Assembly (NCBI RefSeq): GCF_013141865.1
Contig: NZ_RCST01000001.1
Span: 4,340,001-4,404,000 of the forward strand
Source: Methylomonas sp. ZR1
GTDB lineage: Bacteria > Pseudomonadota > Gammaproteobacteria > Methylococcales > Methylomonadaceae
Direction of reading: 5' to 3'
Length of the DNA: 64,000 bases
Shown here: positions 4,609 to 26,863 of the stretch, in pieces
Layout: each line of letters opens with the position of its first letter
How positions within the stretch are numbered: the stretch's first letter is position 1
Position numbers and translations under genes: made by a program
The notes under the pieces: model-generated
What the model was told of the DNA's origin: nothing
Databases searched by the model: none
Seen by the model: only the letters and a program-made list of their open reading frames with translations

Positions 4609-4709
4609 GCAATCGCGCCAGTCTGCGTCAGGGCTATTTTTATGCAGATTGAGAGTTTACGGTCTTGGACTATCATCGACAGTACGTAACAGGCGATTTT
4701 TAGGGTTTG

Positions 4710-7166: not shown

Positions 7167-7201
7167 AACTACCGACAAACGTCATTCGCACTCAACAATC
7201 T

Positions 7202-8614: not shown

Positions 8615-8622
8615 CAAAAGCG

Positions 8623-10184: not shown

Positions 10185-10306
10185 TTGCCGTTGCGGTGAT
10201 TTTGGTGATGGCCGACCAACGAACAAATTAGATTTTGAATGCTCCAGTCCGGCCAAAAGCGGCCTATGGAAAATACAAAAAATCAGTTTTCCGAATGGCT
10301 GGTTGT

Positions 10307-10765: not shown

Positions 10766-10782
10766 AGACTGTATCCTTGGCT

Positions 10783-11112: not shown

Positions 11113-11123
11113 ATCGATTTCTC

Positions 11124-11492: not shown

Positions 11493-11532
11493 AGCATTCT
11501 CCTAAGCCAAACCATGCTCAATGTGGCTAAGG

Positions 11533-11564
11533 AGTCTAAACCCTGTTGTTTAGAACAGAGTCAA
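11533..11564 (-). promoter_or_regulatory. MerR-controlled promoter PmerT with elongated spacer
   Basis: On the minus strand a -35 box TTGACT (11564-11559) is followed by a -10-like TAGACT (11538-11533) with a 19-20-bp spacer, the stretched spacing typical of MerR-activated promoters. Between them lies a perfect 7-bp inverted repeat, TCTAAAC and GTTTAGA separated by six bases (11535-11554). The -35 box overlaps the stop codon of merR. MerR bound here should untwist the DNA when Hg(II) is present. Confidence 0.88.
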
Positions 11565-11986
11565 GTGGGTGGTGGTGTCTTACCTAAAGGCGATGCATCA
11601 TCGCTAAACGCATCGAGGATAGCGCAATGAGCGGCGGGAGCGGTTTTCTGACAGTCGTTGACCAGGCCTTCCAACGCCTGGCGAAGAGCCGTTAAATCCC
11701 TGATTTGCTGATCGATTTGCTGGCATTTGTGCTCGGCGAGTTGTCGAACATCAGTACAGTGCGCCCCATCCAGCGATAACAAGGTGGCAATTTCCTTCAA
11801 GGTAAACCCGGCCTGTTGAGCGCGTTTGATAAAGCGTACTCGCTTAATCGAATCAGCTGAATAAACGCGATAACCGCCATGGGGTTTCGCTGGCTCTGTC
11901 AGTAAGCCAATGCGTTGATAGTGACGGATGGTTTCAATGGTGACTTCGGTATGTTTGGCAAGTTTGCCTATGGTTAAAGGCGACAT
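11561..11986 (-). CDS. merR: Hg(II)-responsive regulator MerR
   Basis: 141 residues. The winged HTH is LTIGKLAKHTEVTIETIRHY followed by GGYRVY. The three mercury ligands of Tn501 MerR (C82, C117, C126) are matched by C77, C112 and C121 with identical spacing of 35 and 9 residues, which separates it from copper, zinc and redox MerR relatives. Unlike most Gram-negative mer operons, it is not divergent but lies upstream of merT on the same strand, with the merT promoter at its 3' end. Confidence 0.93.
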   Translation of the reverse strand: MSPLTIGKLAKHTEVTIETIRHYQRIGLLTEPAKPHGGYRVYSADSIKRVRFIKRAQQAGFTLKEIATLLSLDGAHCTDVRQLAEHKCQQIDQQIRDLTALRQALEGLVNDCQKTAPAAHCAILDAFSDDASPLGKTPPPT

Positions 11987-12190
11987 TTCATTGAACCCAA
12001 TGTTAAAGGGATTTTATTGTCCCTCAGTTTTACCACTTACCAGCTATTAACAAATAACTATGAATATTATCTTGAATGGCGGCTAATTGTCAGATGCCTG
12101 CCTATGAGGTAATTGGGGTCACATGGACAGCTTAGGGTCGACCAGAGACTTTGACGCTTTTTGAATTCACCCAAATTGAATGTCAGCTGA

Positions 12191-12564
12191 TGTCACTTTA
12201 CATGCTGTGTGTCGAGTTGCCAAACTCGACCATTGTCCTTATTTTCTCGGGCGACCGAGCTCATTTCCCGATCATTCTCCAAAATAGCTCCGACATTCTA
12301 ACGGCGAACACCGGCGTTGCGGCTCTGAACCGGATCGTTCGAGAAAAAAGCTTGAATGGTTTAGTTCTGAACTGCAATTTTCAAGAAACTTTCTCGATTA
12401 ATGTAGTTAAAAGCTCGGTCATTCGAGAAAATTTCTCGGTTGTTCGAGCTTGGCGCTGAATTGTTTTAGCAAATTACGCCATTGATGCAGCTCAGAGCTG
12501 CAATGCTGCGGAAATTTTCTGGAATGACGTAGAAAATATGCTGATGCCTGGCTATTTCCAGCCA
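12191..12564. repeat. Palindrome-rich non-coding stretch, possible mobile-element end
   Basis: The roughly 600 bp between merR and the HEAT gene show no convincing gene. Five near-perfect hairpins lie within 354 bp: 12211-12230 (8-bp arms), 12246-12259 (5-bp arms), 12411-12451 (outer AAGCTCG/CGAGCTT, inner CGAGAAA/TTTCTCG), 12486-12502 (8-bp arms) and 12549-12564 (5-bp arms). The words TTCTCG/CGAGAA recur at least five times in both directions. TGTCACTTTACAT at 12190-12202 resembles the TGTCA-type termini of Tn5053/Tn7-like transposons, but no partner end or transposase is present. The 102-codon ORF here has no recognisable homology. Confidence 0.5.
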
Positions 12565-12611
12565 TAACCTTTCAATTGTCGGCAAAATCGATTCGGCGGG
12601 TGACGCTGCGC

Positions 12612-13589
12612 TTATCCGCCCTTGGCAGCAAGTAAGGTATCGATACGGGTCAGGGCTATGCGTGCCAGTTTCCTAACCTCCGGGTCGGGATCGGCTTCGG
12701 CGGCGGTCAGTGCCGGTATTGCGGTATCGGCGCCGATTTCGCCGAGCGCGATGGCCGCCTCCTTGCGCAGATTGCTGACCGGATGCGTTAGCGTTTCTAT
12801 CAATGCCGGCAGCGCGTCTGTATGACCGATGCGGCCCAGGGCGCGGGCCGCGCGCAGGCGTACCTGCCAGTAGTCGTCGTTTAATGCGGTAATCAATTCC
12901 GGCACGGCGTCGTTGAATTTCAATTTACCCAAGGTCGTGGCGGCTTCTTCGCGCACCACCCAGGAGGTATCCCGCAAGGCTGCAAGCAGGGCCGGCAGTA
13001 CAGTTTGATCGCTGGCCATGCCCAGCGCGCCGGTCGCGGCGCGTCTTACTTCGATGTCCCGGTCGCGCTCGGCCAAATCCGCCAGTTCCGGCAGGGCCTG
13101 AGCAAATTTCAACCACCCCAAAACGCCCACCGCCTCGCGCCGTACCGAGGCATCGCCATCGGCAAGCGCGGACAAAGCCAGCAATGCCGCTTCAGACAAA
13201 CGCAACTCGCGTACCGCGCGTAATGCGGCGGCGCGTACGAAACCGTCGTTATGTTCCAGCCAAGGTAGTAACTGCAAACCAGCGGCGCGGGTCTTTATGC
13301 CTGATAGGCTTTGCGCCGCAGCCACTCGCACCGCATCATCGGTATCGAGCAGCAAATCGGCCAACGCGGTAATCACCGGGGCGTCTTCCCAACCGGCCAG
13401 CAGCGTCGCAGCTTCGGCGCGAATTTTCGCTTCCGGATCGCTGGTCGCTTGGATCAGCCAAGGTAATTGGCTTTCGTCTTCCGCATCCGCCAGTTCGATC
13501 AAGGCGAGTCGGCGTACCGTGGCATCAGTGCTGGTAAGCCGGGGTAAAAGCTCGGTCAGCTTGGCGTTATTAGTAAAAACATCGGTCAT
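12612..13589 (-). CDS. HEAT-repeat (PBS-lyase type) protein
   Basis: 325 residues made almost wholly of about nine to ten helical repeats of roughly 31 residues, with the recurring pattern D-VR-AAA-LG (examples: DTSWVVREEAATTLGKL, DDYWQVRLRAARALGRIG). Such proteins are protein-protein scaffolds or chaperone-like factors in the cytosol. The ATG at 13587-13589 was chosen; an upstream extension would read through a palindromic repeat. It is the last gene of the minus-strand sulfur cluster, about 180 bp after the binding-protein gene, so it may assist a cluster enzyme such as the AprA-like protein; this is inference from position only. Confidence 0.85.
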   Translation of the reverse strand: MTDVFTNNAKLTELLPRLTSTDATVRRLALIELADAEDESQLPWLIQATSDPEAKIRAEAATLLAGWEDAPVITALADLLLDTDDAVRVAAAQSLSGIKTRAAGLQLLPWLEHNDGFVRAAALRAVRELRLSEAALLALSALADGDASVRREAVGVLGWLKFAQALPELADLAERDRDIEVRRAATGALGMASDQTVLPALLAALRDTSWVVREEAATTLGKLKFNDAVPELITALNDDYWQVRLRAARALGRIGHTDALPALIETLTHPVSNLRKEAAIALGEIGADTAIPALTAAEADPDPEVRKLARIALTRIDTLLAAKGG

Positions 13590-13646
13590 GGTCGGCTCGA
13601 ATTGGACTTTAAGAGAGTTGGCAAGGTTACGGTGAAAATACAATGT

Positions 13647-13716
13647 GTAGGATGTGCTGAGGTACGAAGCGCATCTTTCGCGATTGATGCGCTTCACGTT
13701 GTTCAGCACATCCTAC
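13647..13716. repeat. 70-bp palindromic intergenic repeat
   Basis: An inverted repeat with outer arms GTAGGATGTGCTGA and TTCAGCACATCCTAC (13-14 matching bases) and inner arms GAAGCGCATC and GATGCGCTTC, separated by a short loop. The layout is that of a REP/MITE-type dispersed palindrome. It lies between the importer's binding-protein gene and the HEAT gene, where it could act as a transcript-end or mRNA-stabilising hairpin. Confidence 0.8.
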
Positions 13717-13773
13717 TTATCGTTCATTTTCCGGAGTGGTAGGTGACTTCATGATCGTTAGGCTAAAAATCGA

Positions 13774-14706
13774 TTATTGTTTTGGAAAATCTTGGGCCTG
13801 CTTTATCAAACCCAACTCATGAAATTGTCGCCAGCGCGCTTGATAGAACTGGCGCAGTTCCGGTGTTAAAGCCAGCAGTTCGGCATTGGCCTGCTCGGCT
13901 TTGGTAAAGGTCGGATCTTCGTTCGAAGTCTGCCGGACAAACTTGGCGTCGATACGTAACTTCTCGGCAAACCATTGGCTGGCTTGTTCCGGGTTTTGCG
14001 CGGTATAAACCACTGATTCCCGCAGCGCGGCCAGATAAAGCTCGCGGGCATTAGGCTGCTTTTGCAAAAACTCGCTGCGCAAAACGGTCAGAAAAGGAAA
14101 CGGCCAGCGCTGAATCGGGCGGGCGCCGAATTGTTCTTTAACCCTTGTCGCCTGCGGTTCGCGGATCACGGCCGCATCGACCTGCGCTTGGGCGATCAAC
14201 GCCGGCAGCTCGGCGGGCGGCGTGTTGATCAGTTCCACGTCGGCTGGTTTCAGACCATTTTGCTGGAGCGCGAGTAGCAGGTCGGCATAGGAATCGGAGC
14301 CGAAAGATGCCGCGATTTTCTTGCCTTTCAAGTCCTGGAAGGATTTGCTATTGCTGGCTGCCGGCACCAGCAAGGAATGACTGGAGTAGCCAAGCTGGCC
14401 GACTACCACGGCTTTGTTGGGCTGTTTATCCAGGAAGGTGGCGATCGGTAACGGACTGCTCACCACCGCATCGAGTTGGCCGGCGGCCAGCGCCTCCATC
14501 ATCGGCGGACCGTTCTGGAATACCTGAAATTCTGCAGCCAGCCCGTGCTTATTGGCGATACCGGCCATTTCCATTACCACCGGGTAAACGCCGTTCATGC
14601 CGGATGGATAGCCGATTCTGATCTTGATTGCATCCTGAGCTGAAGCACCCAAGGAGGCCGTGAACAGCAGCAGAGTGGAAAGAATTCGCAGCGTATAAAA
14701 TGACAT
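13774..14706 (-). CDS. ABC importer substrate-binding protein (SsuA/TauA/NMT1-like)
   Basis: 310 residues with a signal peptide (cleavage near SLGASAQD, about residue 23). The mature fold starts IKIRIGYPSGMNGVYPV and contains MMEALAAGQLDAVVSSPLP and FQDLKGKKIAASFGSDSYAD, typical of periplasmic binding proteins for sulfonates, nitrate or thiamin precursors. It lies four bases after the permease gene. The neighbours (sulfatase, sulfotransferases, AprA/B-like proteins) make an organosulfur anion the most likely ligand. No binding-site residue can be assigned by eye. Confidence 0.88.
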   Translation of the reverse strand: MSFYTLRILSTLLLFTASLGASAQDAIKIRIGYPSGMNGVYPVVMEMAGIANKHGLAAEFQVFQNGPPMMEALAAGQLDAVVSSPLPIATFLDKQPNKAVVVGQLGYSSHSLLVPAASNSKSFQDLKGKKIAASFGSDSYADLLLALQQNGLKPADVELINTPPAELPALIAQAQVDAAVIREPQATRVKEQFGARPIQRWPFPFLTVLRSEFLQKQPNARELYLAALRESVVYTAQNPEQASQWFAEKLRIDAKFVRQTSNEDPTFTKAEQANAELLALTPELRQFYQARWRQFHELGLIKQAQDFPKQ

Positions 14707-14709
14707 GAT

Positions 14710-15528
14710 TCACGTTTTGTGTGGGTGATTAGCCTGCCAAGGCAAGACGATCCGCTCGATGCGGACCAGCGCGAAATTCATCAGCGATCCCAACACGCCG
14801 ATGGTGACCATACCCACCAGCACTGCGCCGGTGTCGAGATTGATGCGATGAATTTGAATCATGTAACCCAAGCCGGACTGGGCAGCGACCAGTTCCGCAG
14901 TCACCACGGCCATCCAGGATTGGCCCAGGCCAATCTTCAAACCGGTCCAGATCTGTGGGAAAGCAGCCGGCAGGAACACCCGCAGCAATAAATCGGTTTT
15001 GCCCGCGCCCATGAAACGGGCGGCATGGATATAGTGCGGTTCGACGCCCAGGCCGCCGGCGAAAGCATTCAGAAAAATCGGAAAAAAAGCCGCCAGCGCG
15101 GTGATAAAAAAGCTGGAACCGTTCTTGATGCCAAACCATAAAATCGCCAGCGGAATCCAGGCGATGGGCGGAATCGGCCGCAGCAGCGTGACGATGGGCA
15201 GGAGCAAGCGCCGCAAGGTAGCGAAATAGGCCATGGTCAGAGCTAGCGGCACCGCCAATATCACCGCTAAAAAGAAGCCGATCAGCACCCGCTCCAGGCT
15301 GGCTAATATGTCTTTGGCCAGACTATTGTCGTCAATTAGCTGCCAGAGGCTGGCCATCACCGTGGTCAAATCCGGCAGCAATACCGGGTTAGCGACCATT
15401 TTGGCGGCCAGCAGCCAAACCAGCAGGAACAAGCCATAGCTGACCAGCGGCCAGCCCAGGGCGGCAAGCAGTCGCTTGGCTTTACGATAACCTTGGTGTA
15501 ATGCGATGTTTGCTTCGATTGCCGACAT
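14710..15528 (-). CDS. ABC transporter permease (SsuC type)
   Basis: 272 residues with about six membrane helices. The EAA loop is YIHAARFMGAGKTDLLLRVF followed by LPAAFPQIWTGLK. RPIPPIAWIPLAILWFG is the conserved segment of taurine/sulfonate/nitrate permeases. Spacing to the ATPase gene is seven bases, so the three transport genes form one operon. Confidence 0.92.
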   Translation of the reverse strand: MSAIEANIALHQGYRKAKRLLAALGWPLVSYGLFLLVWLLAAKMVANPVLLPDLTTVMASLWQLIDDNSLAKDILASLERVLIGFFLAVILAVPLALTMAYFATLRRLLLPIVTLLRPIPPIAWIPLAILWFGIKNGSSFFITALAAFFPIFLNAFAGGLGVEPHYIHAARFMGAGKTDLLLRVFLPAAFPQIWTGLKIGLGQSWMAVVTAELVAAQSGLGYMIQIHRINLDTGAVLVGMVTIGVLGSLMNFALVRIERIVLPWQANHPHKT

Positions 15529-15535
15529 GCTTAGC

Positions 15536-16387
15536 TCAACGGTTAAACACTTTCAGGCTTTCTTCCCTGACCGCGCGGTGGATGGTTTTGCGCAGCCGTT
15601 CGAATCCGGGCGAACTTAGGGTTTCCGGGGAGCGCGGACGCGGGAGGTCAATGGCGATGTCGGCTTTGACACCGCCCGGTTCCGTACGCATCACGATCAC
15701 CCGGTCGGCGAGATAGATTGCTTCGTCGACGTCGTGCGTGATAAACACCACGCTGGTGCCGAAGCGGTCCCATATTTTCAACAGTTCTTCCTGCATCACG
15801 CTGCGGGTTTGCGCATCCAGCGCGCCGAAGGGTTCGTCCATCAACAGCAGAGTCGGCTTTGTCGCCAAGGCGCGGGCAATTGCCACGCGCTGCTGCATGC
15901 CGCCGGACAGCGCTTTGGGGTAGGCTTTGGCGAAGCGTTCCAGTCCGACCATTCGCAACAGTTCCAAGGCGATGTTTTCCGGGTCCGGCAGGCCCAGCAT
16001 GCGCGGCCCGAACGCTACGTTTTGCAACGCGGTCAGCCAGGGAAACAGCGAGTGCTGTTGAAAAACCACGTTACATAACGGCGTCGGTTCCTTGACCGGC
16101 ACGCCATCGATACTTACCGTGCCGGTGGTGGGCTTGAGCATGCCGGAGACGATATTCAGCAATGTCGATTTGCCGCAGCCGGACGGGCCGAGCAAGGCTG
16201 TAAAGGCGCCGGCGTGCAAGTCCAGATCGACACGGTCCAGAGCGGTATGCTCGCGTTCCGAGCCGCGAAACACCATAGACACATCGCGTAAAGCAATCCG
16301 TCCCCGGCCGCTTCGCGGCGACGAAGCGCTGTCGGCAAGCGCTGTGTTTATCGCCGGATTGGGTTGGCTTAAAGCGGAATTCAACAT
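15536..16387 (-). CDS. ABC transporter ATP-binding protein (SsuB type)
   Basis: 283 residues. Walker A GPSGCGKST (from about residue 67), Q-loop FQQHSLFPWLTAL, signature LSGGMQQRVAIARAL, Walker B LLLMDEPFGALD and switch ITHDVDEA are all intact. About 30 extra N-terminal residues precede the domain. It energises the adjacent permease. It starts nine bases after the sulfotransferase stop. Confidence 0.94.
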   Translation of the reverse strand: MLNSALSQPNPAINTALADSASSPRSGRGRIALRDVSMVFRGSEREHTALDRVDLDLHAGAFTALLGPSGCGKSTLLNIVSGMLKPTTGTVSIDGVPVKEPTPLCNVVFQQHSLFPWLTALQNVAFGPRMLGLPDPENIALELLRMVGLERFAKAYPKALSGGMQQRVAIARALATKPTLLLMDEPFGALDAQTRSVMQEELLKIWDRFGTSVVFITHDVDEAIYLADRVIVMRTEPGGVKADIAIDLPRPRSPETLSSPGFERLRKTIHRAVREESLKVFNR

Positions 16388-16396
16388 CGTCCGGCC

Positions 16397-17551
16397 TTAC
16401 AATACGACTTCGCTGCTGGTATAGACGCGCTTCACGCCGAAGTGCTCTTTCCAACGCCGTTGCGCGCGGTAGCCGGCGATTTCCTCTTCCTGGGTATGGC
16501 CGTGCGGAAACTCGGCGGGTACGTCGCTATCCGACCATAGGCCAAGCCGTTTGCGTTCCAGGCGCTGATCGATCAGCCAGTCGTTGTAGCTTTCGTGCAC
16601 CAGATGGCCGTCCGGCGCGCCGAGCAAGGCCGCGCGGGTGCGTTGGTCGCGTTCCAAATACAGGTTTAATTCCTTGTCGTCGATCTGAGCCGGTTCTACC
16701 TCCACTGAATAGCCGGCTTCCGTTAACTCTTGGCCGGCGATGGCGGCGAAAATGGCTTGTTCTTCCAGGCTTAATTCGCGCCGATAGCGGCCTATCCATT
16801 GGGTGCTGACCGGCTGGCCCAATGGCGCGTGATCGCGGGTTTGGCCGCGGCGCTGGGCGATGGTGCCTTGATGAAAGTCCAGCAAGGCCGGAGAAAACGC
16901 TTCGCCGAGAAACTCGCAGACCGTCCGCAATACCGGCAGCGGGTCCCGGGCCAACTGTTCGTAGCTGACATCCAGCCATTGCCCGCTGTCGAGTTTTTCC
17001 CGCCACGGTTTTACTGCGTTCTGGCAAAGCTTCCAGGTGCGTGCCGCCGCGTAAATATTGGTGGGGCCGAATGCGGAACGCAGATATTCGGCGCTGGCAT
17101 CACGGCCGTCGCGGGTCAGAAACACAAATTGCGCATTTGGAAAGTCCTCCAGAATCTGCCCGACATAAAACAGGTTGTGCGGGGTCTTTTCGCCCCAGCG
17201 CGGCTTGTTTTGCAGGCGGGCATAGCGTTCGAACATCGCGGTATAGATGCCGGCGAAGCTGGGCTGCGGCGCGCTGGCTAAAATCTCGTCAACGATAGTC
17301 GCCGGATTAACCGGCATATCCCAGAACGGTGTCTTTAAACCAAACACCATTTCATCGGCCAGAGTACGTAGGTTTTGGATTTGTGACAGATCGCCGTAGC
17401 TGAACAGATAAGGCCGGAAACGCGGGTAATACCAGGCCACTTCCGGCACGGCGATGCGCGGGTGATTGCCCAGCATGGCCATCAACAGCGTGGTGCCGGA
17501 GCGCTCCGAGCCGATGATGAATAGCGGTCGTTCCTTCAATGTAATTGCCAT
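16397..17551 (-). CDS. Sulfotransferase family protein (PAPS-type) with C-terminal extension
   Basis: 384 residues. The 5'-phosphosulfate loop is IIGSERSGTTLLMAML (residues about 12-27) and the 3'-phosphate motif is FVFLTRDGRDASAEYLRSAF, as in cytosolic and bacterial PAPS-dependent sulfotransferases (Sulfotransfer_3 type). Residues about 290-384 extend beyond the core, are rich in charged residues (HGHTQEEEIAGYRAQRRWKE) and have no domain I recognise. Placed between an ABC importer and AprA/B-like genes, it may act on a sulfated or sulfonated substrate, possibly in reverse to recover the sulfuryl group; the direction is a guess. Confidence 0.85.
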   Translation of the reverse strand: MAITLKERPLFIIGSERSGTTLLMAMLGNHPRIAVPEVAWYYPRFRPYLFSYGDLSQIQNLRTLADEMVFGLKTPFWDMPVNPATIVDEILASAPQPSFAGIYTAMFERYARLQNKPRWGEKTPHNLFYVGQILEDFPNAQFVFLTRDGRDASAEYLRSAFGPTNIYAAARTWKLCQNAVKPWREKLDSGQWLDVSYEQLARDPLPVLRTVCEFLGEAFSPALLDFHQGTIAQRRGQTRDHAPLGQPVSTQWIGRYRRELSLEEQAIFAAIAGQELTEAGYSVEVEPAQIDDKELNLYLERDQRTRAALLGAPDGHLVHESYNDWLIDQRLERKRLGLWSDSDVPAEFPHGHTQEEEIAGYRAQRRWKEHFGVKRVYTSSEVVL

Positions 17552-17618
17552 AAGGTTTTCTCTCGATCTTTATCACTACGCCGCAAGAATCGGCAGGGTT
17601 GAATGGCTCTGTTTTGTG

Positions 17619-17867
17619 TTAACGCAGCAAATACGGAATTTCCACGCTGACCGCGCCGGTTGGGCAATCCTTCTCACACGGCAAGCAGTACCAACACTCG
17701 TCGAAGGTCATCTGGGCCTTGCCCGTCAGGGGATTGATCGCCAACACATCGAGCGGGCAGGCTTCCACACACACGGTGCAACCCTTGTCGGCGATGCATT
17801 TGTTCTCGTCGATAGTGACCGGCACATTGCTGCGCTGAATCGCGCTGGGGAATGAGGATTTGCTCAT
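17619..17867 (-). CDS. AprB-like ferredoxin with two [4Fe-4S] clusters
   Basis: 82 residues with two four-cysteine sets: KCIADKGCTVCVEACP (CX5CX2CX3C) and ECWYCLPCEKDCPTGA (CX2CX2CX3C). The second matches AprB of adenylylsulfate reductase (CWECYSCVKMCPQGA) more closely than general 2[4Fe-4S] ferredoxins. AprB proteins of sulfate reducers are about 150 residues, so the C-terminal tail that wraps AprA is absent. The ATG overlaps the flavoprotein stop (ATGA), implying a stoichiometric complex of the two. Confidence 0.88.
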   Translation of the reverse strand: MSKSSFPSAIQRSNVPVTIDENKCIADKGCTVCVEACPLDVLAINPLTGKAQMTFDECWYCLPCEKDCPTGAVSVEIPYLLR

Positions 17868-19606
17868 GGTGCAACCGCCTCCGATGTTTGGGTTGGATTG
17901 ATGCGTAAACGCTGATAAGCGGTTTTTTCCTGGTCGTCGACCGGGATGACGTAAGGTTCCAACGGTCGTTTGAAACAGGCCATGTCGCCGCCGGCATTTT
18001 TGTGCAATTGCACGTGCACCAGCCAGTCAGCGTCGTTGCGCGCCGGGTAATCGACTCTGGCGTGGTAAAGCCCCCAACGGCTTTCGGTGCGATATAGAGA
18101 GGCGCGCGCCGCCATTTCCGCGCAATCGCGGATCGCGTGCACTTCCATGGCCCGCATCAATTCGTGGGGATGGTTGGCGTGCAATACCTCCAGGTCGTCG
18201 CGGATGCTGTCGAAGCGTTCCAAGCCGATTTCCATCTTGCGGGTGACTTTAGGCGGCTGCAGATAATCGTTGACCATACGCCTTAATTTGTATTCGACTT
18301 GGGCCGGCGGCAATCCGGATTCGCGTTTTAACGGTGCCCACACCCGTTGCCGTTCGGCGTCCAGTTGCGCCGAATCGACCTCCGCCTGCCCGTGTTCGTT
18401 GGCATGGCGCGCCGCCGATTCGCCGGCAAAGCCGCCATAAACAAAGGCGCCAAGCATGTAATTGTGCGGTACGCATGCCAGATCGCCGGCGGCATACAGG
18501 CCCGGCACGGTGGTGGCTGCGTGTTCGTCCACCCAGACACCGGAAGCCGAATGGCCGCTGCATAAGCCAATTTCGGAGATGTGCATTTCGACCATGCGTT
18601 CGCGGTAATTGGTGCCGCGCCCGGCATGAAAGCGGCCGCGGCTGGGACGTTCGTTGCCGTGCAAGATGGTTTCGATGGTGTCTATGGTTTCCTCAGCCAG
18701 ATGATCCAATTTCAGGAATACCGGACCGTTGCCGCTTTCCAGTTCGTTATAAAACTCCTGCATCATCTGTCCGGACCAGTAATCGCATTCGATAAAACGC
18801 TGGCCTTTGCTGTTGGCGGTATAGCCGCCGAATGGGCCGGTAACATAGGCGCAGGCCGGGCCGTTGTAATCCTTGATTAATGGGTTGATCTGGAAGCATT
18901 CGATGCCGGACAGTTCCGCGCCGGCGTGATAGGCCATGCTGTAACCGTCGCCGGCGTTGGTCGGGTTTTCGTAGGTGCCGAACAAGTAACCGGAGGCCGG
19001 TAAGCCCAAACGGCCGGCGGCGCCGGTGGCCAGCACGACCGATTTGGCCTTGATCACATGAAAATCCGCCGTGCGGCAGTCGAATGCAAACGCGCCGGCA
19101 ATCCGGCCGTCCGCGCCGACAATCAAGCGCGTGGCTACCAGGCGATTAGTGATTTCGACGCGGTTGCGTTTTAACTGCCGGTATAGAATCTTTTTAATAT
19201 CGTGGCCTTCCGGCATCGGCAGTACGTAGGTGCCCATGTGATGCACTTTTTTTACGGCATAATCGCCGGTTTCGTCCTTTTCGAATTTCACGCCCCAGCG
19301 GTCAAGTTCTTCGATCATCGCAAAGCTGTTGCGAGCATAGGCCAGCACGGTTTTCTGATTGACGATGCCGTCGTTGGCGACGGTGATTTCCCGCACGTAT
19401 TGTTCCGGCGTGGCATGACCGGGTACCACGGCGTTGTTCAGGCCGTCCATGCCCATGGAGATGGCACCACTACGTTTGACGTTGGCTTTTTCCAGCAGCA
19501 AAACCTTTAAATTCGGATTGGCTTGCTTGGCTTTGACCGCCGCCATCGGCCCGGCCGTGCCGCCGCCGATGACTAGTACGTCCACTGCGTGTTCGATGGT
19601 ATTCAT
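17864..19606 (-). CDS. AprA-like FAD-dependent oxidoreductase (fumarate reductase/adenylylsulfate reductase family)
   Basis: 580 residues. The FAD-binding Rossmann motif is VDVLVIGGGTAGPMAAVKA; the second FAD contact is TTVPGLYAAGDLA. The stretch CSGHSASGVWVDE recalls the SHSGCCGIWV region of AprA. The HPTG, RGEGG and GANRLGGNS motifs of SdhA/FrdA are absent, so succinate/fumarate is unlikely. Fusion-like coupling to an AprB-like ferredoxin supports an Apr-type electron path. No sat, aprM or qmo genes occur nearby, so classical APS reduction or sulfite oxidation is unproven. It lies in an operon with organosulfur transport and sulfotransferase genes, directly after the GntR gene with a 3-bp gap. 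Confidence 0.85.
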   Translation of the reverse strand: MNTIEHAVDVLVIGGGTAGPMAAVKAKQANPNLKVLLLEKANVKRSGAISMGMDGLNNAVVPGHATPEQYVREITVANDGIVNQKTVLAYARNSFAMIEELDRWGVKFEKDETGDYAVKKVHHMGTYVLPMPEGHDIKKILYRQLKRNRVEITNRLVATRLIVGADGRIAGAFAFDCRTADFHVIKAKSVVLATGAAGRLGLPASGYLFGTYENPTNAGDGYSMAYHAGAELSGIECFQINPLIKDYNGPACAYVTGPFGGYTANSKGQRFIECDYWSGQMMQEFYNELESGNGPVFLKLDHLAEETIDTIETILHGNERPSRGRFHAGRGTNYRERMVEMHISEIGLCSGHSASGVWVDEHAATTVPGLYAAGDLACVPHNYMLGAFVYGGFAGESAARHANEHGQAEVDSAQLDAERQRVWAPLKRESGLPPAQVEYKLRRMVNDYLQPPKVTRKMEIGLERFDSIRDDLEVLHANHPHELMRAMEVHAIRDCAEMAARASLYRTESRWGLYHARVDYPARNDADWLVHVQLHKNAGGDMACFKRPLEPYVIPVDDQEKTAYQRLRINPTQTSEAVAP

Positions 19607-19609
19607 GGT

Positions 19610-20347
19610 TTATCGCTCGATGCGTGCGCGTAGTTGAAAGTTATCCGCCCGGCAATACAGGTATTCGAAATCCAGCGGCGCCCCGTCCTTGGTGTGCGTC
19701 AGCCGTTCGATACGCAAAACGGGCGAGCCGTCCGCAATTTGCAGCAAGGCCGCGAGTTCTGCATCGGCCAGCACGGCGTCTATGCTCAGATCGGCATAAC
19801 CCAATGCAATGGCGTAGTCGTTTTCCAGAATCAGGAAGATGTCGCGCGTGGCGAGGTTTTCCTGCGCTAGCCGCTTGCCGAGGGGAGCGGTCACATAAGT
19901 CACATCCAAAGATACCGGCTGGCGATTCAGATGGCGGACCCGCTTTAGTTCGGTAACCGGTTCGCCTTCCGCCAGACCCAGCTTTTGCGCAACAGCCGGG
20001 CCTGCCGGCAGATGTTTGATGCCGACCACGCGGTTGTAGATTTCGTGGCCTTGCTTCGAGAAAGCTTCGGCAAACCCTTGTAGACGGGCCAAGGATTGAA
20101 ATGGCTTGGGCAAGGAAACGAACATGCCTTTGCCGGCCACCTTGAACAACACACCCTCCTTTTCCAACTCGCCCAAGGCCTGGCGTACCGTGATACGGCT
20201 AACGCCGTAGCGGCTCATCAACTCGCTTTCCGACGGTAGGCGTGCGTGAGGTTTATAGACGCCGGCCACGATGCGCGTCCGCAATTCATCGCGGATGCGG
20301 GCGTATAAGGAACCGGGCGGTGTGATGTGGGCTTTGTCGGCAAGCAT
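19610..20347 (-). CDS. GntR family regulator with UTRA ligand domain (HutC type)
   Basis: 245 residues. An N-terminal winged HTH (PSESELMSRYGVSRITVRQA then LGELEKEGVLFKVAGKGMFV) is followed by a UTRA ligand domain with conserved RLTHTKDGAPLDFEYLYCR near the C-terminus. It is the first gene of the operon that continues into the AprA/B-like, sulfotransferase and importer genes, so it probably senses a pathway substrate or intermediate and autoregulates through the palindrome just upstream. Confidence 0.92.
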   Translation of the reverse strand: MLADKAHITPPGSLYARIRDELRTRIVAGVYKPHARLPSESELMSRYGVSRITVRQALGELEKEGVLFKVAGKGMFVSLPKPFQSLARLQGFAEAFSKQGHEIYNRVVGIKHLPAGPAVAQKLGLAEGEPVTELKRVRHLNRQPVSLDVTYVTAPLGKRLAQENLATRDIFLILENDYAIALGYADLSIDAVLADAELAALLQIADGSPVLRIERLTHTKDGAPLDFEYLYCRADNFQLRARIER

Positions 20348-20351
20348 TTAA

Positions 20352-20379
20352 GTCATAACTGGTCATTACGGGTTATGAC
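20352..20379. promoter_or_regulatory. Candidate operator for the GntR regulator
   Basis: A perfect 8-bp inverted repeat GTCATAAC and GTTATGAC lies five bases upstream of the GntR start, with the related word TGGTCATTA between the arms and a further TGACTCGTCA to its right. GntR/HutC operators are short palindromes of this kind. Similar words (GATGACTGGTCAA) recur at about 24190, some 245 bp upstream of the arylsulfate sulfotransferase start, hinting at a shared regulon. Confidence 0.55.
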
Positions 20380-20583
20380 TCGTCAACGCAAATGACATGC
20401 CAGCGCTAGAGACGCATTGCTTATATGCCGCTAACCAAATGATTTTATGAAATAAGTTGTGAGTTGACGTCGAGCGGCGTAACGACTTTGGCGACTGCAA
20501 AACGTTGCCAAGTGCTGATCAGGGAACAGCGATTGCTGGTGCATTGATCGAATACAAGCAGACCATCGATATGGCTCCTAGGC

Positions 20584-20991
20584 TCATTCTAGGGAAAAGG
20601 TCAGCGGTACTGCTACCCAATGGAACGGGGCTATCGATGCGTCATAAGGTTCAAACTGCCATTGCGATACGGCTTTCACCGCATACTGGTTCAGCGCTTC
20701 GCGAGATGATTTTAAGACTTTGGTCCCACATGTAGTTCCGTTTGGTTTAATGCATAGTTGAATAACGACTACGTCTTTAGAACCAGGTATTTGAAATTTG
20801 CTAGGAAATTCAGGGGCCACCATTTTTAGTACTTTTAACTTCGTTCCTTGAGGTCCTCGCGCAAAACCACCGGAATTATCGACCAACCGAGCACCATTTG
20901 AGGAACAACCCAACAGCAGTATTGTCATCAGCACGATGATCCCGTTGCGCCAAAATCCGCAGGGAAATCCTGGATTTTTCTTGATCAGCAT
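20584..20991 (-). CDS. Lipoprotein with TonB C-terminal-like domain
   Basis: 135 residues. Positively charged N-terminus, a hydrophobic stretch and a lipobox ending LLLGCSS (about residues 26-31) indicate a lipoprotein. The rest (VLKMVAPEFPSKF, then VVVIQLCIKPNGTTCGTKVL and YAVKAVSQWQFEPY) follows the TonB C-terminal fold used by TonB and by TonB-C carrier proteins. It has no proline-rich spacer, so it is not a functional energy transducer by itself. It sits between the sulfatase and the GntR gene; its role there is unknown. Confidence 0.75.
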   Translation of the reverse strand: MLIKKNPGFPCGFWRNGIIVLMTILLLGCSSNGARLVDNSGGFARGPQGTKLKVLKMVAPEFPSKFQIPGSKDVVVIQLCIKPNGTTCGTKVLKSSREALNQYAVKAVSQWQFEPYDASIAPFHWVAVPLTFSLE

Positions 20992-21050
20992 TCGATTTTT
21001 GTTGCCGTATACAGGGAGGCTGGTTTGAAAGGTAAATGTACACTCAGTCG

Positions 21051-22472
21051 CTAATCTCCCACCAAAGAACGGTAACGATCCGCCTGGACTTTGCCGTCCA
21101 CGGCATGGCTGCCCACATCGTCAGTAATGGGCAGCATCGACGCATTCCACTCATCCCATTGTTGTTTGAGCCGGGTAAACACCTCGGGATTTTTTTCCGC
21201 CAGATTGGCGCGTTCGCGCTGATCCGCGACGACATCGAACAGAAATTCGTTGTCGGCGATTTTCAGATATTTCCAGTTACCCAAACGCACGGCGCGCTGT
21301 TTGTTGGCCTTGTAGCGCCAGAACAGAGTGCGCGGATACGGATTCTCGGCTCCTAAAATCACCGGCAGCAGGTTTTCACCGTCCGGCTTGTAGGCGGCAT
21401 CCGGTGTGCCACTGGCGGCGGCCAGCAAAGTGGGCAGCCAATCCATGCTAATCGCCACTTGCTCCGTCACCTGAGCCGGTTTGATTTTTTCCGGCCAGCG
21501 CACCAGCGCCGGCACCCGGATACCGCCTTCGAGTAACTCGGTTTTTTGGCCGGAAAATGGCCAGGTCTTGGAGAAGCGCTCGCCGCCGTTATCGCTGGTG
21601 AACACCACGATGGTGTTTTGATCCAGACCGCGTTGTTCCAGGGTTTGCAAAACCCGGCCAATCGCGGCATCCAGTGTGGTCACCATCTTGGCGTAGGTTG
21701 CCAGATTGCCGCCGTCGTAATGAAATAGGCTTTTGATTTCCCGGGAAGTAGCTTCGTCTTGCGGCCCTTCCCAAGGCCAGTGCGGCGCGGTGAAATGCAG
21801 GGACAGAAAAAACGGTTTGTTGCCATCCTGTTTGCCGATGTAGTCTACGGCGCGGTTGGCAAGCAGATCGGTGTAATAACCCACCTGATGTACCGGCACT
21901 TCGCCTTCGAACAAATCTTCCCTGGCATTTTCACCGCTGCCGGCTTTGTGGGTGAAATAATCGATGGCGCCGCCGTAGTTGCCAAAAAACACATCGTAGC
22001 CGCTTTTTAACGGGCCGAATTTCGGCAACGAACCCAGATGCCATTTGCCGAACAAAGCCGTGGTGTAGCCGGTTTTCTTTAGTAACGAAGGTAGGGTTGG
22101 ATGTTCCGGCGGCAGGCCGATGGTGTCCGATGCGCCGGCGATGGGTTCTTCCAAACCGCCGCGCAAACGATATTGATAGCGGCCGGTTATCAAACCAAAG
22201 CGCGTCGCCGAGCACACCGCCGAGTTGGAGTAGGCCTGAGTAAAGCGCAGCCCTTGCTGGGCAAGCCTATCGAGTTGCGGCGTTTGAAAATCGGTTTGAC
22301 CGTAGACGCTCAGGTCGCCGTAACCCAGATCGTCGGCCAGGATGAAAATGATATTGGGCTGGCCTTTTTTATCGGCGGCAAACGGAAAATTCCAGCTAGT
22401 GGCAATGGATGCCAGCGAGAGCGCCGAGAGCCCTTTCAGCACGCGGCGACGATTGTTGTTAAATGAGCTCAA
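21051..22472 (-). CDS. Tat-exported sulfatase (arylsulfatase family)
   Basis: 473 residues. The N-terminus NNNRRRVLKGLSALSL is a twin-arginine signal, so the folded enzyme is exported to the periplasm. The metal site starts IIFILADDLGYGDL (D47, D48). The catalytic motif is C87-S-A-T-R-F-G-L-I-T-G-R, a CxAxR variant of the CxPxR sulfatase signature in which the cysteine is oxidised to formylglycine. It hydrolyses sulfate esters to free sulfate. The start codon is TTG, with GGAA upstream; no ATG fits. It is followed by a TonB-C lipoprotein and preceded by the arylsulfate sulfotransferase on the same strand. A formylglycine-generating enzyme is not encoded in the window. Confidence 0.9.
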   Translation of the reverse strand: MSSFNNNRRRVLKGLSALSLASIATSWNFPFAADKKGQPNIIFILADDLGYGDLSVYGQTDFQTPQLDRLAQQGLRFTQAYSNSAVCSATRFGLITGRYQYRLRGGLEEPIAGASDTIGLPPEHPTLPSLLKKTGYTTALFGKWHLGSLPKFGPLKSGYDVFFGNYGGAIDYFTHKAGSGENAREDLFEGEVPVHQVGYYTDLLANRAVDYIGKQDGNKPFFLSLHFTAPHWPWEGPQDEATSREIKSLFHYDGGNLATYAKMVTTLDAAIGRVLQTLEQRGLDQNTIVVFTSDNGGERFSKTWPFSGQKTELLEGGIRVPALVRWPEKIKPAQVTEQVAISMDWLPTLLAAASGTPDAAYKPDGENLLPVILGAENPYPRTLFWRYKANKQRAVRLGNWKYLKIADNEFLFDVVADQRERANLAEKNPEVFTRLKQQWDEWNASMLPITDDVGSHAVDGKVQADRYRSLVGD

Positions 22473-22528
22473 AGCTTATTCCAATGTATGGTTCAAAGTG
22501 ACGGTTTGGAAGCTCTACGTAGTTAAAT

Positions 22529-23947
22529 TCAAGGATTGGCCGGAACGCGATAGTGGGTGACGTCCTGAGCTTTAACCGGCTTCTCGGAATGCGGTGTGCC
22601 GGTTGGCGCCCAATCGTACGGTACCGGCTGCGCGCGGTACACGGTGTTGCTGGATATTGGCTGAGGATCGTCGGCACGCAGTTGGCTGAAATAGGGACTG
22701 ATATATTCCCAGACGATTTCGCCCTTGGCGGTTACCTGCAAGAAGCGGCCATTCATGCCTTCATCGATCAGGGTATTGCCGTTGGGCAAACGACGCGCGC
22801 TGCTGATGTACGAGCTATAAAAGCTGTAATTGGGCCGGCCGGAGTCGGCACCGGTATATTGCCAGACGATTTCCTTCTTGACCGGGTCTATCTCCAATAC
22901 CCGCGAACCGAGTTGGCCGCCAACGCCCAATGTTACCGGTGGATAGCCGGCGGCGCCTTGATTATCGAACACTAGTAAATTGCCCTCGCCGGGCAGGCCT
23001 TTGGGAATGATGTGCGCATCATGCTGACCGCTGATCTGGTCAACCGGCCGAGGCACTTTGTTCTCGAAACTTGCTGGCGTAAAATCCGGACCGATGCGCC
23101 AGACGACCTTGCCGGTCTTTTTCTCGATGATGGCGATGAAGTTGGCTTCGCGCGAATCGATCAATAAATTATCGGGATGAAAACGCTGATCGCCGGCATC
23201 GAACCATTTGTTGGGGCCGACGACGGACATATTGTTGAAATGCAAATAGTCGAACGGCTTGGTTTTATCGTTGCCCCGGCCCAGAGTTTCGTGCAGATAT
23301 TTAAGTGAGGCCTTGCTAAAGCCAAACTCGTTCAAGTGATCGTAGGCATGCCATTTCCAGACCGCCTGGCCTTTGGGGTCGACTTCGTAAATACCGTCGT
23401 CCAGCAATTTATCGGCCTTGAAGCCTTTGACCGGCTTTTCGTAGTTAATCAAAATTACGGTATTGCCGTTGGGTAATCGGTGCCAGTCGTGATGCTGTCT
23501 GATGGCAGTGCCGTAACCGTTGGTGTCGTTACTGTTACCGGACGCCGCATAGGAATCCTGGGCTTTGGCGCCGCCCCACTGCCAAACCACCTTGCCATCC
23601 CAATCCACTTCACCTATCGATTGCGGCTCTTTGCTATTGTTACCGCCACCGGTAGGGCCGGAAAACTGCAACAACACATGGCCTTGCTGGCCGTTGATCA
23701 ATTGCGGGTCAAGGAATAGAGGCGGTTGACCGGTATTCGCCCATTGATGCACCTCGTTACCGTTCAAGTCGATCAGATGGGTCTTTTTGTCCGCGCCGGA
23801 AAACAACACATAACTGTTATAGCTTTTACCTGGATCGTAGCGGGTAACGCCGGTGGGATAAATGCTCGGCGCTGCGAAGGAGAGATTCGCGGTGGCCGAG
23901 GCCAAAACCAGAGGTATTAGTGCGAAATGGGGGTGTTTTTTAAGCAT
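22529..23947 (-). CDS. Arylsulfate sulfotransferase (ASST family), periplasmic
   Basis: 472 residues with a signal peptide (MLKKHPHFALIPLVLASATA, cleaved near SFAAPS). Several blades of the ASST propeller are visible as repeats such as GEVDWDGKVVWQWGG, YEVDPKGQAVWKWHAYDH and LEIDPVKKEIVWQYTG. The histidine motifs IRQHHDWHRLPNGNTVI and SGQHDAHIIPKG are candidate active-site residues of this PAPS-independent family, which moves sulfate from one phenol ester to another through a sulfo-histidine. A clear ribosome site (agaggaa) precedes the ATG. It appears to head the sulfatase segment of the cluster. No dsbA/dsbB homologue is directly attached, unlike some assT loci. Confidence 0.85.
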   Translation of the reverse strand: MLKKHPHFALIPLVLASATANLSFAAPSIYPTGVTRYDPGKSYNSYVLFSGADKKTHLIDLNGNEVHQWANTGQPPLFLDPQLINGQQGHVLLQFSGPTGGGNNSKEPQSIGEVDWDGKVVWQWGGAKAQDSYAASGNSNDTNGYGTAIRQHHDWHRLPNGNTVILINYEKPVKGFKADKLLDDGIYEVDPKGQAVWKWHAYDHLNEFGFSKASLKYLHETLGRGNDKTKPFDYLHFNNMSVVGPNKWFDAGDQRFHPDNLLIDSREANFIAIIEKKTGKVVWRIGPDFTPASFENKVPRPVDQISGQHDAHIIPKGLPGEGNLLVFDNQGAAGYPPVTLGVGGQLGSRVLEIDPVKKEIVWQYTGADSGRPNYSFYSSYISSARRLPNGNTLIDEGMNGRFLQVTAKGEIVWEYISPYFSQLRADDPQPISSNTVYRAQPVPYDWAPTGTPHSEKPVKAQDVTHYRVPANP

Positions 23948-24370
23948 GAAGCCTATTCCTCTTAATTAAAGTCGGCAAAATCCAAGGGGCGAACAGTGAG
24001 GGGCTATGCACTCGCCATCCCCACCGCGTTAATCATGAGTATTCAGCAACTTCCATACCATCTGCAAACTCTGGTGCGCAAGCGGGATGGCCTAGGCTTT
24101 ATTTACTTCAAGCAATTGATTTTTATTGATTTATATAAAGCGCATAGGCGGCGAATGTACCAATGACTGGCTATCGATGACCTTGAAAGTGATGACTGGT
24201 CAACAGTGTTGCAGCAATATCAGTCTCGGGAGAAGCTGTCTGGAGTCAGGGGACTTTTATGTTCTGGGCACGGCCATCGTGATCGATTAGCCTGGAATAA
24301 AGTGGTCGCTTTGGATTTTGCAGGATAGGCTGAAATTGATGCCTATGTTTAGGGGACGGCGAAGTTTGTA
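23948..24370. other. Intergenic region upstream of the arylsulfate sulfotransferase
   Basis: About 420 bp without a convincing gene. A 43-codon plus-strand frame (24035-24166) has no ribosome site or recognisable product. Words like TGACTGG and GATGACTGGTCAA (about 24163-24203) resemble the candidate GntR operator upstream of the regulator gene. The region should contain the promoter for the sulfotransferase-sulfatase genes. Confidence 0.4.
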
Positions 24371-24403
24371 AAAAATCGCTGGGCTTTAGCGAAACAGCCC
24401 AGC
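24371..24403 (-). terminator. Rho-independent terminator of the small secreted-protein gene
   Basis: On the minus strand an 8-bp perfect stem (GCTGGGCT and AGCCCAGC, loop of 10) is followed by GATTTTTTA. It lies 12 bp after the stop codon of the 118-residue protein gene. Confidence 0.88.
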
Positions 24404-24415
24404 ACTATTCAAGCC

Positions 24416-24772
24416 TTACAGTGCTTTATACAGTTCGATAGTCTTGGTCAATTCTTCAGTGGCTTTAGCTACGTTACCGGCTTTAGACTGGATCTGTCCT
24501 TGCATCAAAGAGGCGTGAGCTTTTTTCGCGGCTTCGGAGTTGCCGGCAATCGCTTCGGAACTGGTTCTGGCGGCTTTCAGATGAATCTGCGCAGCGGAGA
24601 AATCGCTTTTGCTGACTTCAACCAGCGCTTTTTCGATGTGAGCGATAATGCCTGCGGCGCCTGATTGTGCTGCTGCAACTGGCGCTTCTTCAGCAGCAAA
24701 GGCACAAACGTTGACCAGGCTCAAAGATGTTGCCAATGACAGAGTTAACACTGCTTTTGTAAATAATTTCAT
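24416..24772 (-). CDS. Small secreted alanine-rich helical protein, function unknown
   Basis: 118 residues. A clear signal peptide (MKLFTKAVLTLSLATSLSLV, cleaved near AFAAEE) leaves a mature protein of about 90 residues that is almost all amphipathic helix (IIAHIEKALVEVSKSDFSAA; KAGNVAKATEELTKTIELYK), reminiscent of TPR-like or four-helix periplasmic proteins. No catalytic motif is seen. It has its own terminator, so it is a single-gene transcript, possibly well expressed. Confidence 0.8.
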   Translation of the reverse strand: MKLFTKAVLTLSLATSLSLVNVCAFAAEEAPVAAAQSGAAGIIAHIEKALVEVSKSDFSAAQIHLKAARTSSEAIAGNSEAAKKAHASLMQGQIQSKAGNVAKATEELTKTIELYKAL

Positions 24773-25163
24773 TAAGTAGATTTCGTGTGATGGTTAATAG
24801 GTCCAATGCCCTAAAAAACACGTCATCACAGAATAGATTTTTTGCACCGGCAACTTATAGGTCTAAGTTCGTCGTGAAGTAGCACCGGTACAGCACCCTT
24901 TGCCATATAGCCGGCAAAAGGCTTGAAGCAAATCCATGCTGATGGGAAGTATCTTTTTTCCTACTGGGTCCAATTGAAAAACGTTATTGCTTTTCAAGCG
25001 CCATCATAACGGATTTAGCGTGCCGGCAACGGACCATTTGCGCCGGGCAGTTGCGACAAGTGGCCGCAACGCGCCGATTTGCAGATTTATCGGGCGCAAG
25101 CTGGCGCCCCGTCGCCGGCAATCATTTATAATGCTCTCCCGCCTTTTGCCGCATTCAGCCATC

Positions 25164-26156
25164 ATGATAGACACGCTATACATCGAATCCGCTATCGAGC
25201 AGCACCCGCGCGTAGCGACGATTCGGCGGCGTTTTCCGCAAGCGCGGACGGTGGTTTGTGAGCGATACGGTGAGGTGTTTAATCCAAAGGCGCAAAACTT
25301 TCGCTTACAAAAGCAACATCCGGCGCTGATTCTGGCGGAAAAATACCAAAAGTTCGTGTTGCCCGCGCCGGCCGGTTACGGTATCGGCGGCCAGCAAAAT
25401 TATTATTTTTCGCACATGCTCAATTGCTTGTACGACTGCCGCTACTGTTTTTTACAGGGCATGTACCAGTCGGCCAACTATGTGCTGTTTGTGAATTACG
25501 AGGACTTTCAGGAACAGATTCGCCAAATCTGCCGAGAAACGCCCAATCAGGATGTGTATTTTTTCTCGGGTTACGATTGCGACAGCTTGGCTTTTGAGCC
25601 GGTCACCGACTTTGCCGAACAGTTTTTGCCGGTGTTCGCGGACTTGCCCAATGCCTGGCTGGAGCTGCGTACCAAGAGCACACAGATCAGAAGCCTATTA
25701 AACCGTGAGGTGGTGCCGCGCTGCGTGGTGGCGTTTAGCCTGTCGCCGGATGCGGTGGCCGATAAAGTGGAAGCCAAGGCGCCAAACGTAGCCAAGCGCA
25801 TCGAAGCCGCTGCCAAATTGCAGCAACAGGGCTGGCAAATCGGTTTGCGTTTCGACCCGTTGATTTATCAGCACGACTATCGGCAGCAATACCGGGCCTT
25901 GTTCGAGCAAGTCTTTGCGGCCATCGATGCCCAAGCCCTGCACTCTGTCAGTCTGGGGGTGTTTCGTTTGCCGGAACAATATTTCAAAAAAATGCATAAG
26001 CTATATCCGGATGAAAGATTGTTCGCCAGCCCGCTGCAAACCGCGTCCGGCATGGTGTCTTACCGCGCCGACCTGGAGCAGGCGATGATGGCCGATTGCG
26101 CGCAAATGTTGCTGGAATACATCCCGCACAGCGCTTATTTCCCATGCACACTGTAA
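25164..26156 (+). CDS. SPL-family (spore photoproduct lyase-like) radical SAM protein
   Basis: 330 residues from the ATG at 25164; the upstream frame lacks homology. The radical SAM cluster is C88-LYD-C92-RY-C95, a CX3CX2C motif in NYYFSHMLNCLYDCRYCF. Other family stretches include VYFFSGYDCDSLAFEP and WLELRTKSTQIRSLL. Members outside spore-formers are widespread in Gammaproteobacteria and of unproven role; DNA lesion repair is suggested by the SPL similarity. The last 13 bases overlap the SDR gene, indicating translational coupling. Confidence 0.85.
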   Translation: MIDTLYIESAIEQHPRVATIRRRFPQARTVVCERYGEVFNPKAQNFRLQKQHPALILAEKYQKFVLPAPAGYGIGGQQNYYFSHMLNCLYDCRYCFLQGMYQSANYVLFVNYEDFQEQIRQICRETPNQDVYFFSGYDCDSLAFEPVTDFAEQFLPVFADLPNAWLELRTKSTQIRSLLNREVVPRCVVAFSLSPDAVADKVEAKAPNVAKRIEAAAKLQQQGWQIGLRFDPLIYQHDYRQQYRALFEQVFAAIDAQALHSVSLGVFRLPEQYFKKMHKLYPDERLFASPLQTASGMVSYRADLEQAMMADCAQMLLEYIPHSAYFPCTL

Positions 26157-26857: not shown

Positions 26858-26863
26858 CCCCAC

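Follow-up and report, generated by a model that had tools for sequence, protein, structure and literature searches.

The window, a 64,000-nt stretch of the Methylomonas sp. ZR1 genome, carries a conserved unit composed of a GntR-type regulator, a flavoprotein, a ferredoxin, an ATP-binding cassette (ABC) importer and a HEAT-repeat protein, together with its own putative operator; this unit is referred to here as the core. On the minus strand, the GntR/UTRA regulator (19610–20347; PF00392 and PF07702) is followed by a flavin adenine dinucleotide (FAD) flavoprotein of the PRK08275/NF006131 family (17864–19606; 1092.7 bits, passing the cut-off of 587), and by an 82-aa ferredoxin (17619–17867), assigned by PF12838 and by its sequence, which has eight cysteines in two 4Fe-4S motifs and whose start overlaps the end of the flavoprotein gene by 4 bases. 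The HEAT-repeat protein (12612–13709, minus strand; PF13646, 175 bits; a shorter start is possible) begins 64 bp beyond the gene of a substrate-binding protein (13774–14706). On a Cupriavidus plasmid (L052), the unit runs in one direction as GntR regulator, flavoprotein, ferredoxin, 474-aa binding protein, permease, ATPase and HEAT protein; the window's regulator is 58% identical to the Cupriavidus core regulator, and its HEAT protein is 53% identical to that of L052. A single NCBIfam model, PRK13800 (NF010374), covers both the flavoprotein (residues 3–565 on model positions 9–573) and the HEAT protein (residues 65–354 on model positions 611–896). The two parts form one chain in that family, whereas here they are two genes with others between them; in 14 control genomes the profile gave no match at E ≤ 1e-100, and hence no fused gene was seen.

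Two SsuA-like importers are encoded in the window, one on each strand, and sequence identity indicates that the core's own importer is the plus-strand one (7202–10184). It consists of an NMT1/SsuA-like binding protein with a NosL-like C-terminal tail (7202–8614), a permease (8623–9411; PF00528) and an ATPase (9420–10184), which is 65% identical to that of L052 and has taurine/Sao-type NCBIfam matches under cut-off. The second importer, on the minus strand, comprises the binding protein at 13774–14706, a permease (14710–15528; PF00528) and an ATPase (15536–16387; PF00005). Compared with the Cupriavidus core, the plus-strand and minus-strand copies have identities of 67% versus 27% for the binding protein and 63% versus 41% for the permease; the minus-strand importer was thus rejected as the core's own transporter on its binding-protein identity. 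A NosL-like tail was found in 9 of 10 scanned core-type binding proteins (E ≤ 0.1, best 2.9e-6), and the match in the window's copy scores 21.2 bits, below Pfam's 24; NosL domains are known from copper handling.

The conservation of the core was assessed across 94 loci, which were selected by the presence of the flavoprotein and exclude the window and its two same-genus relatives. They comprise 80 of at least 592 confirmed genome stretches, 12 of 51 matching plasmid records and regions of two genomes (G057 and G230), and constitute a non-random sample with many related members, whose stretches end at 10–20 kb or at contig edges. Genes were clustered by longest open reading frames (ORFs), many of them antisense, and the clusters were used as a lead only. 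The ferredoxin and HEAT genes accompany the flavoprotein in 93 loci, the remaining one (L090) ending at a contig edge, and the HEAT gene is therefore considered part of the machine. Moreover, GntR is directly upstream of the flavoprotein in 81 loci, and a core-type binding protein (at least 37% identity) is present in 71. The prevailing order is flavoprotein, ferredoxin, core-type importer and HEAT protein (49 loci). In the other classes, flavoprotein, ferredoxin and HEAT protein stand together without a core-type binding protein in the stretch covered (21 loci), are followed by FdxA (16 loci), or occur with the core-type binding protein at another point of the locus (6 loci); two loci were left unclassed (L090, for its contig end, and L140, where the operon is on the minus strand). 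In particular, the Cupriavidus order recurs on Acinetobacter, Aquabacterium and Paraburkholderia plasmids, while Methylocystis, Methylobacterium, Rhizobium and Bradyrhizobium have flavoprotein, ferredoxin and HEAT protein with the transporter nearby at another place. Acidithiobacillus has the core-type permease and ATPase only, nearby, and Mesorhizobium has no core-type transporter in the stretch. A small gene with a DUF971 domain is present at 67 of the 94 loci and has no match in the window. At the core locus of G057, the binding-protein and permease genes are separated by an ORF (L140:5596–6378) that looks, by eye, like a class D beta-lactamase.

The putative GntR operator, with inverted half-sites GTCATAAC / GTTATGAC, lies at 20352–20379 on the minus strand; it is the one match in the window, compared to a mean of 0.00 in shuffled sequences. 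Among the 77 loci with a clear GntR gene, 56 carry GTCATAAC or GTTATGAC, either upstream of the GntR gene or in the gap that separates it from the flavoprotein gene; the same 8-mer half-sites occur elsewhere in those loci at 0.007 per kb. The full CTTGTYATRACAAG is found in 29 of the 77 loci, with 29 sites in GntR gaps and one elsewhere (in L098, where it separates the ferredoxin and binding-protein genes). The window lacks a full CTTGTYATRACAAG and carries the facing half-site pair instead. No such pair was found in the window before the sulfatase, arylsulfate sulfotransferase (ASST) or amidase genes described below. An operator-like site before the amidase (5701–5714, 3 mismatches) is not claimed, as 5.3 matches of this kind are expected and 3 were found in the window. 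A promoter and terminator scan gave counts near those of shuffled sequence.

The flavoprotein and ferredoxin had been described in the original prediction as an AprA/AprB-like pair, a likeness that holds only at the level of the fold. A profile of 12 family members matched best, among solved structures, 8a8o (267.7 bits), which is the alpha subunit of the Methanothermococcus 3′-phosphoadenosine 5′-phosphosulfate (PAPS) reductase, followed by A. fulgidus AprA (196.4 bits) and E. coli SdhA (130 bits). With AprAB and the assimilatory PAPS reductase, the pair shares a FAD subunit of the FrdA/AprA family and a two-cluster ferredoxin partner, and the genome encodes a kinase for adenosine 5′-phosphosulfate (APS), so that an assimilatory APS or PAPS reductase, with a neighbouring sulfotransferase making or using the same PAPS pool, has to be weighed. 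The model scores miss their cut-offs by far (aprA, 177.7 versus 641.75 bits; aprB, 28 versus 135.65 bits), and the residues presumed to contact the substrate are replaced: AprA Tyr95, Trp234 and Arg265 align with Glu73, Tyr212 and Leu243, whereas the PAPS reductase retains Tyr, Trp and Arg. Further, AprA Glu141 pairs with Lys119, beside which stands an invariant inserted segment, K-V-H-H-x-G-x-Y-V-L-P-M-P. Of the residues presumed to lie near the flavin, AprA Asn74 is kept, pairing with Asn57 (also Asn in the PAPS reductase). His352 pairs with a PAPS reductase His in a stretch where the AprA alignment has no match, and may correspond to AprA His398. Asn57, Glu73, Tyr212, Leu243 and His352 are invariant in 36 aligned members. 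An importer would, in addition, be needless for an intracellular nucleotide. By its sequence, the family thus appears to retain the AprA fold and not the APS site; identity as an APS or PAPS reductase was rejected on model scores and residue replacements, and this explanation of the locus is highly improbable. The predicted structure of the flavoprotein has a mean predicted local distance difference test score of 61.8, with residues 196–355 under 50.

The genomic context in relatives supports an organosulfur role for the core. In a Methylococcales metagenome-assembled genome (L081), a run begins with an SsuE-like protein, two SsuA-family proteins, SsuD, and SsuC-like and SsuB-like proteins, and continues with a DszC/SfnB-like protein, an amidohydrolase, the flavoprotein, the ferredoxin, the HEAT protein and a CysT sulfate permease; the SsuA-family, SsuD and CysT matches are above cut-off, and those to SsuE, SsuC, SsuB and DszC/SfnB below. 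SsuD is co-directional in one run with flavoprotein, ferredoxin and HEAT protein in L081, L083 and L084 (606.4, 607.6 and 605.5 bits, all above the TIGR03565 cut-off of 518.2), and the SsuE match of L084 is also above cut-off. Beside the Cupriavidus core stand an SfnB-like oxidoreductase (under cut-off) and an NtaA/DmoA monooxygenase (above). These runs and neighbours support the earlier proposal that a cytosolic arm imports and desulfurates an organosulfur compound; APS-reductase-like chemistry is contradicted by the model scores and residues. With the alkanesulfonate system ssuEADCB, the core shares an SsuA-like importer and, in the three loci named, a joined neighbourhood, whereas a search for SsuD in the window's own genome found no match (TIGR03565, E ≤ 0.001; among 14 control genomes, this model has matches in 8 and over cut-off in 2), and therefore the importer does not appear to feed the usual ssu enzyme. 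Electron-supply genes also accompany the core, with FdxA in 17 of the 94 loci and an Nfn-like fusion or FNR in 14, which argues for a ferredoxin-fed enzyme, with electrons presumably flowing toward the flavoprotein. A 1150–1200-aa FAD/NAD fusion protein, with matches to glutamate-synthase-beta and dihydroorotate-dehydrogenase-B NAD-binding models under their cut-offs, lies near the core in 11 of the 94 loci (for example, L073:16839–20423 and L056:10574–14035), and may act as a dedicated NAD(P)H:ferredoxin oxidoreductase.

Taken together, the core is best read as a widespread, GntR-controlled organosulfur-scavenging module on a horizontally acquired, strain-variable island, to which a probability of about two in three is assigned. 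According to this reading, the NMT1/SsuA-type ABC importer would take in a sulfonate-like compound, and the cytosolic FAD flavoprotein, receiving electrons via the two-cluster ferredoxin, would help to remove its sulfur group, probably as sulfite, while the HEAT-repeat subunit may hold the flavoprotein. GntR would repress the operon via the palindromic operator until the substrate or product relieves it. In this lineage, the core has been rearranged, with its own importer on the opposite strand beside an amidase; the sulfotransferase and second SsuA-like importer, placed between ferredoxin and HEAT protein, would presumably broaden or pre-modify the substrate, and a sulfatase–ASST pair could provide sulfate from sulfate esters. 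Sulfonates are a major organic form of sulfur in soil. The closest known system is presumably the aryl-desulfonation locus asfRABC of Pseudomonas putida S-313, likened here by its gene content. It reportedly encodes, in order, a reductase (AsfA), a ferredoxin (AsfB) and a substrate-binding protein (AsfC) under a LysR-type regulator (AsfR), is said to be sulfur-controlled and reportedly works with ssu. By that description, both systems have reductase, ferredoxin and binding-protein genes, and the taxa said to carry asfA (Variovorax, Cupriavidus, Burkholderia and Pseudomonas) overlap the carriers of the core; in contrast, the core's regulator is of GntR/UTRA type, and the core adds a HEAT protein, a permease and an ATPase. 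The order flavoprotein, ferredoxin, binding protein, which matches the reported asf order, is found in 49 of the 94 relatives, and in the window the sulfotransferase and second importer intervene. Judged on its genes, the locus would therefore be of the sulfonate-scavenging type, with more genes than reported for asf and with a rare rearrangement.

Several observations weigh against this reading. Both binding proteins of the window fall under the SsuA-family cut-off of 163.5 bits (123.5 bits to SsuA_fam on the plus strand and 135.6 bits to TIGR01728 on the minus strand), and a core-type binding protein is missing from the stretch covered at 21 of the 94 loci. The ssu linkage is limited to 5 loci with SsuD at ≥55% identity, in a sample that is neither random nor independent, and a core that depended on SsuD would fail in the present genome. 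Neighbours are variable, with Crp/Fnr regulators at five alphaproteobacterial plasmid loci, and one core locus adjoins ammonium transporter and histidine genes. Further, the substrate and the release of sulfite are predicted from the genes.

Some of these features would also fit a core that handles nitrogen or another non-sulfur substrate, of nitrate, nitrile or amide type. The amidase upstream of the core-type importer (5781–7166, plus strand; PF01425, 305 bits) has a 70% identical relative beside the core on a Methylocystis plasmid (L054), the binding proteins have further matches to families of NMT1/THI5 and phosphonate type, and the ammonium transporter just mentioned is near one locus. 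However, ssu-type runs end in the core in several relatives, the closest solved structures of the two binding proteins are of sulfonate and taurine types, with the nitrate type third, and the Aquabacterium locus has a TauE/SafE-family neighbour; a non-sulfur substrate is accordingly quite unlikely. A more specific proposal, which is tentative and rather unlikely, is that the core forms an oxygen-independent, reductive, ferredoxin-fed desulfonating complex, in which a flavin–sulfite adduct would arise straight from the sulfonate and sulfite would be released. Its AprA fold would carry a re-tooled active site, predicted from the alignment to consist of Leu243, Tyr212, Glu73 and the inserted K-V-H-H segment, with the HEAT protein as scaffold and FdxA and an Nfn-like protein or FNR as donors in some lineages; the sulfotransferase may then run from a sulfate ester and 3′-phosphoadenosine 5′-phosphate toward PAPS.

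Returning to organosulfur scavenging, the genes that distinguish the window from the common core are the sulfotransferase and the second importer. The PAPS-type sulfotransferase (16397–17551, minus strand; PF13469, 130.3 bits versus 27) contains the motifs GSERSGTT, GEKTPH and TRDGRD, which we take to be PAPS-binding, and begins 67 bp after the ferredoxin; it is followed by the second importer's ATPase, permease and binding protein at gaps of 9, 7 and 3 bp in turn. Orthologs are present in 3 of 37 genus genomes, in which the sulfotransferase and second importer both lie inside the core, and two further genomes have 32% relatives. At E ≤ 1e-60, the own genome stands alone among 369 genomes of the class, and tblastn (E ≤ 1e-7) found the sulfotransferase in none of the 94 core loci outside the genus set. 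Plasmid searches returned only relatives below 60% identity for the sulfotransferase (24–31%, 9 records) and for the second binding protein (28–36%, 15 records). A neighbourhood combining an AprA-like protein, a sulfotransferase and an importer is thus seen in three genus genomes and does not extend to the other 94 loci. The full mix is rare, and the core within it is much wider in its spread (the flavoprotein is found in 21 of 398 phylum genomes, the own genome counted); restriction to a single strain, which had been named as grounds for discarding the idea, is not what was found.

Upstream of GntR on the minus strand are a TonB_C-domain protein (20584–20991; PF03544), a sulfatase (21051–22472; PF00884) and an ASST-like protein (22529–23947). 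The TonB_C protein has no match in the fetched G025 and G031 regions (L139 and L138). The sulfatase has, by eye, a twin-arginine translocation (Tat)-type start and shares with Cys-type S1 sulfatases a CSATR motif, at residue 87; the genome has three matches over cut-off to the formylglycine-generating-enzyme family (PF03781) and lacks the alkylsulfatase domain PF14863. Its best solved relative is the exo-4S-kappa-carrageenan S1 sulfatase 6prm (272.7 bits), which makes a carbohydrate substrate as likely as an aryl sulfate. The ASST domains exceed their cut-offs (PF05935, 98.1 bits versus 24.2; PF14269, 88 bits) and bear only a distant likeness to solved enzymes, with 9kf4 as a distant relative, and even a profile search at E ≤ 1 matched no E. 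coli structure; several histidines are invariant in 11 aligned sequences, and the E. coli arylsulfotransferase has a catalytic histidine. A full-length ASST paralog (58–61% identity) exists elsewhere in 12 of 37 genus genomes, the own copy (61%) being at G000:C1:1935548–1936876, and none of the 10 copies examined out of these 12 showed a sulfatase beside it, the stretch covered being about 1.5 kb or less on each side for 7 of them.

The original prediction united nine minus-strand genes, from the second binding protein to the ASST, behind the UTRA regulator. The named genes are real, being intact ORFs of the stated domain families, and from GntR to the binding protein their spacing lies between an overlap of 4 bp and a gap of 67 bp; the proposed interval, in turn, omits the HEAT gene and the core importer and includes the TonB_C gene. 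One purpose-built pathway, in which the periplasmic sulfatase and ASST free or move sulfuryl groups and a cytosolic arm processes the product, would be consistent with sulfatase and ASST orthologs of at least 90% identity adjoining the core in the three sulfotransferase-bearing genus genomes and, in a genus-wide count that covers the ASST only, with ASST orthologs of at least 91% being confined to those 3 of 37 genomes. However, such co-presence is also expected from riding one island and so does not indicate a shared pathway. Two genomes have the pair upstream of GntR, and the third (G031) has it, in a different order, downstream of the HEAT gene; no operator copy precedes it, its GC content (53–54%) resembles the surroundings and not the core, and the sulfotransferase is missing from the 94 loci. 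A single nine-gene operon was rejected on the variable position, the lacking operator and the absent sulfotransferase, and one pathway spanning all nine genes is unlikely. The sulfatase–ASST pair is best read as co-travelling cargo with no fixed position relative to the operon.

The locus sits on an island that varies between strains and was probably gained by horizontal transfer. In a blastn comparison of window positions 1–27000 with the same-species genome G458 (L168), 1–5566 and 24394–27000 are collinear at 96%, and G458 has 82 bp between these blocks where the window has 18.8 kb (5567–24393, assigned to neither strand), which marks the insert as an accessory genomic island; in G458, the flanking genes, encoding a PilZ protein and a 118-aa protein (24416–24772 in the window), are next to each other. 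GC content is 57.5–58.5% in five 2-kb blocks (6–10 and 14–20 kb) and 48.9–56.9% in the other 27, and a tRNA gene search of the window found none. A mercury gene block on the minus strand (10307–11986, by Pfam; a zf_CopZ protein, an HMA/MerP-like protein, MerT and MerR) also belongs to this island and lies between its plus-strand and minus-strand importers.

Of 36 genus genomes, 3 have a member of the flavoprotein family; outside the genus, the same holds for 1 of 25 genomes from its family and order. In G025, the genes are spread over two contigs, one with the left flank, amidase and importer and the other with the right flank, ASST, sulfatase and core; the second importer's ATPase is there in two reading frames (L139:13343–14193), by assembly error or decay. 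In G031, the block is at another place and the core-type importer is cut down, with a partial permease and no binding-protein ortholog in the genome; a phage-type integrase gene directly precedes the truncated permease (L138:375–1926). A FastTree phylogeny of 90 flavoprotein sequences places the three from the genus with those of Jeongeupia, Andreprevotia and Silvimonas, at a support of 0.999; the operons of these relatives have the standard core order. The standard order is thus probably older, and the sulfotransferase and second importer probably entered the core later.

The present analysis turns an apparent one-strain oddity into a defined gene set across Pseudomonadota. It joins the flavoprotein and ferredoxin to a HEAT protein and to a binding protein whose tail is NosL-like, and it has a conserved operator-like site, which provides a handle for finding the inducer. 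The island is an example of such a module on the move, recombining with genes for a sulfotransferase, a second importer and enzymes of sulfate esters; if the sulfotransferase does run toward PAPS, it would feed imported sulfate esters into assimilation.

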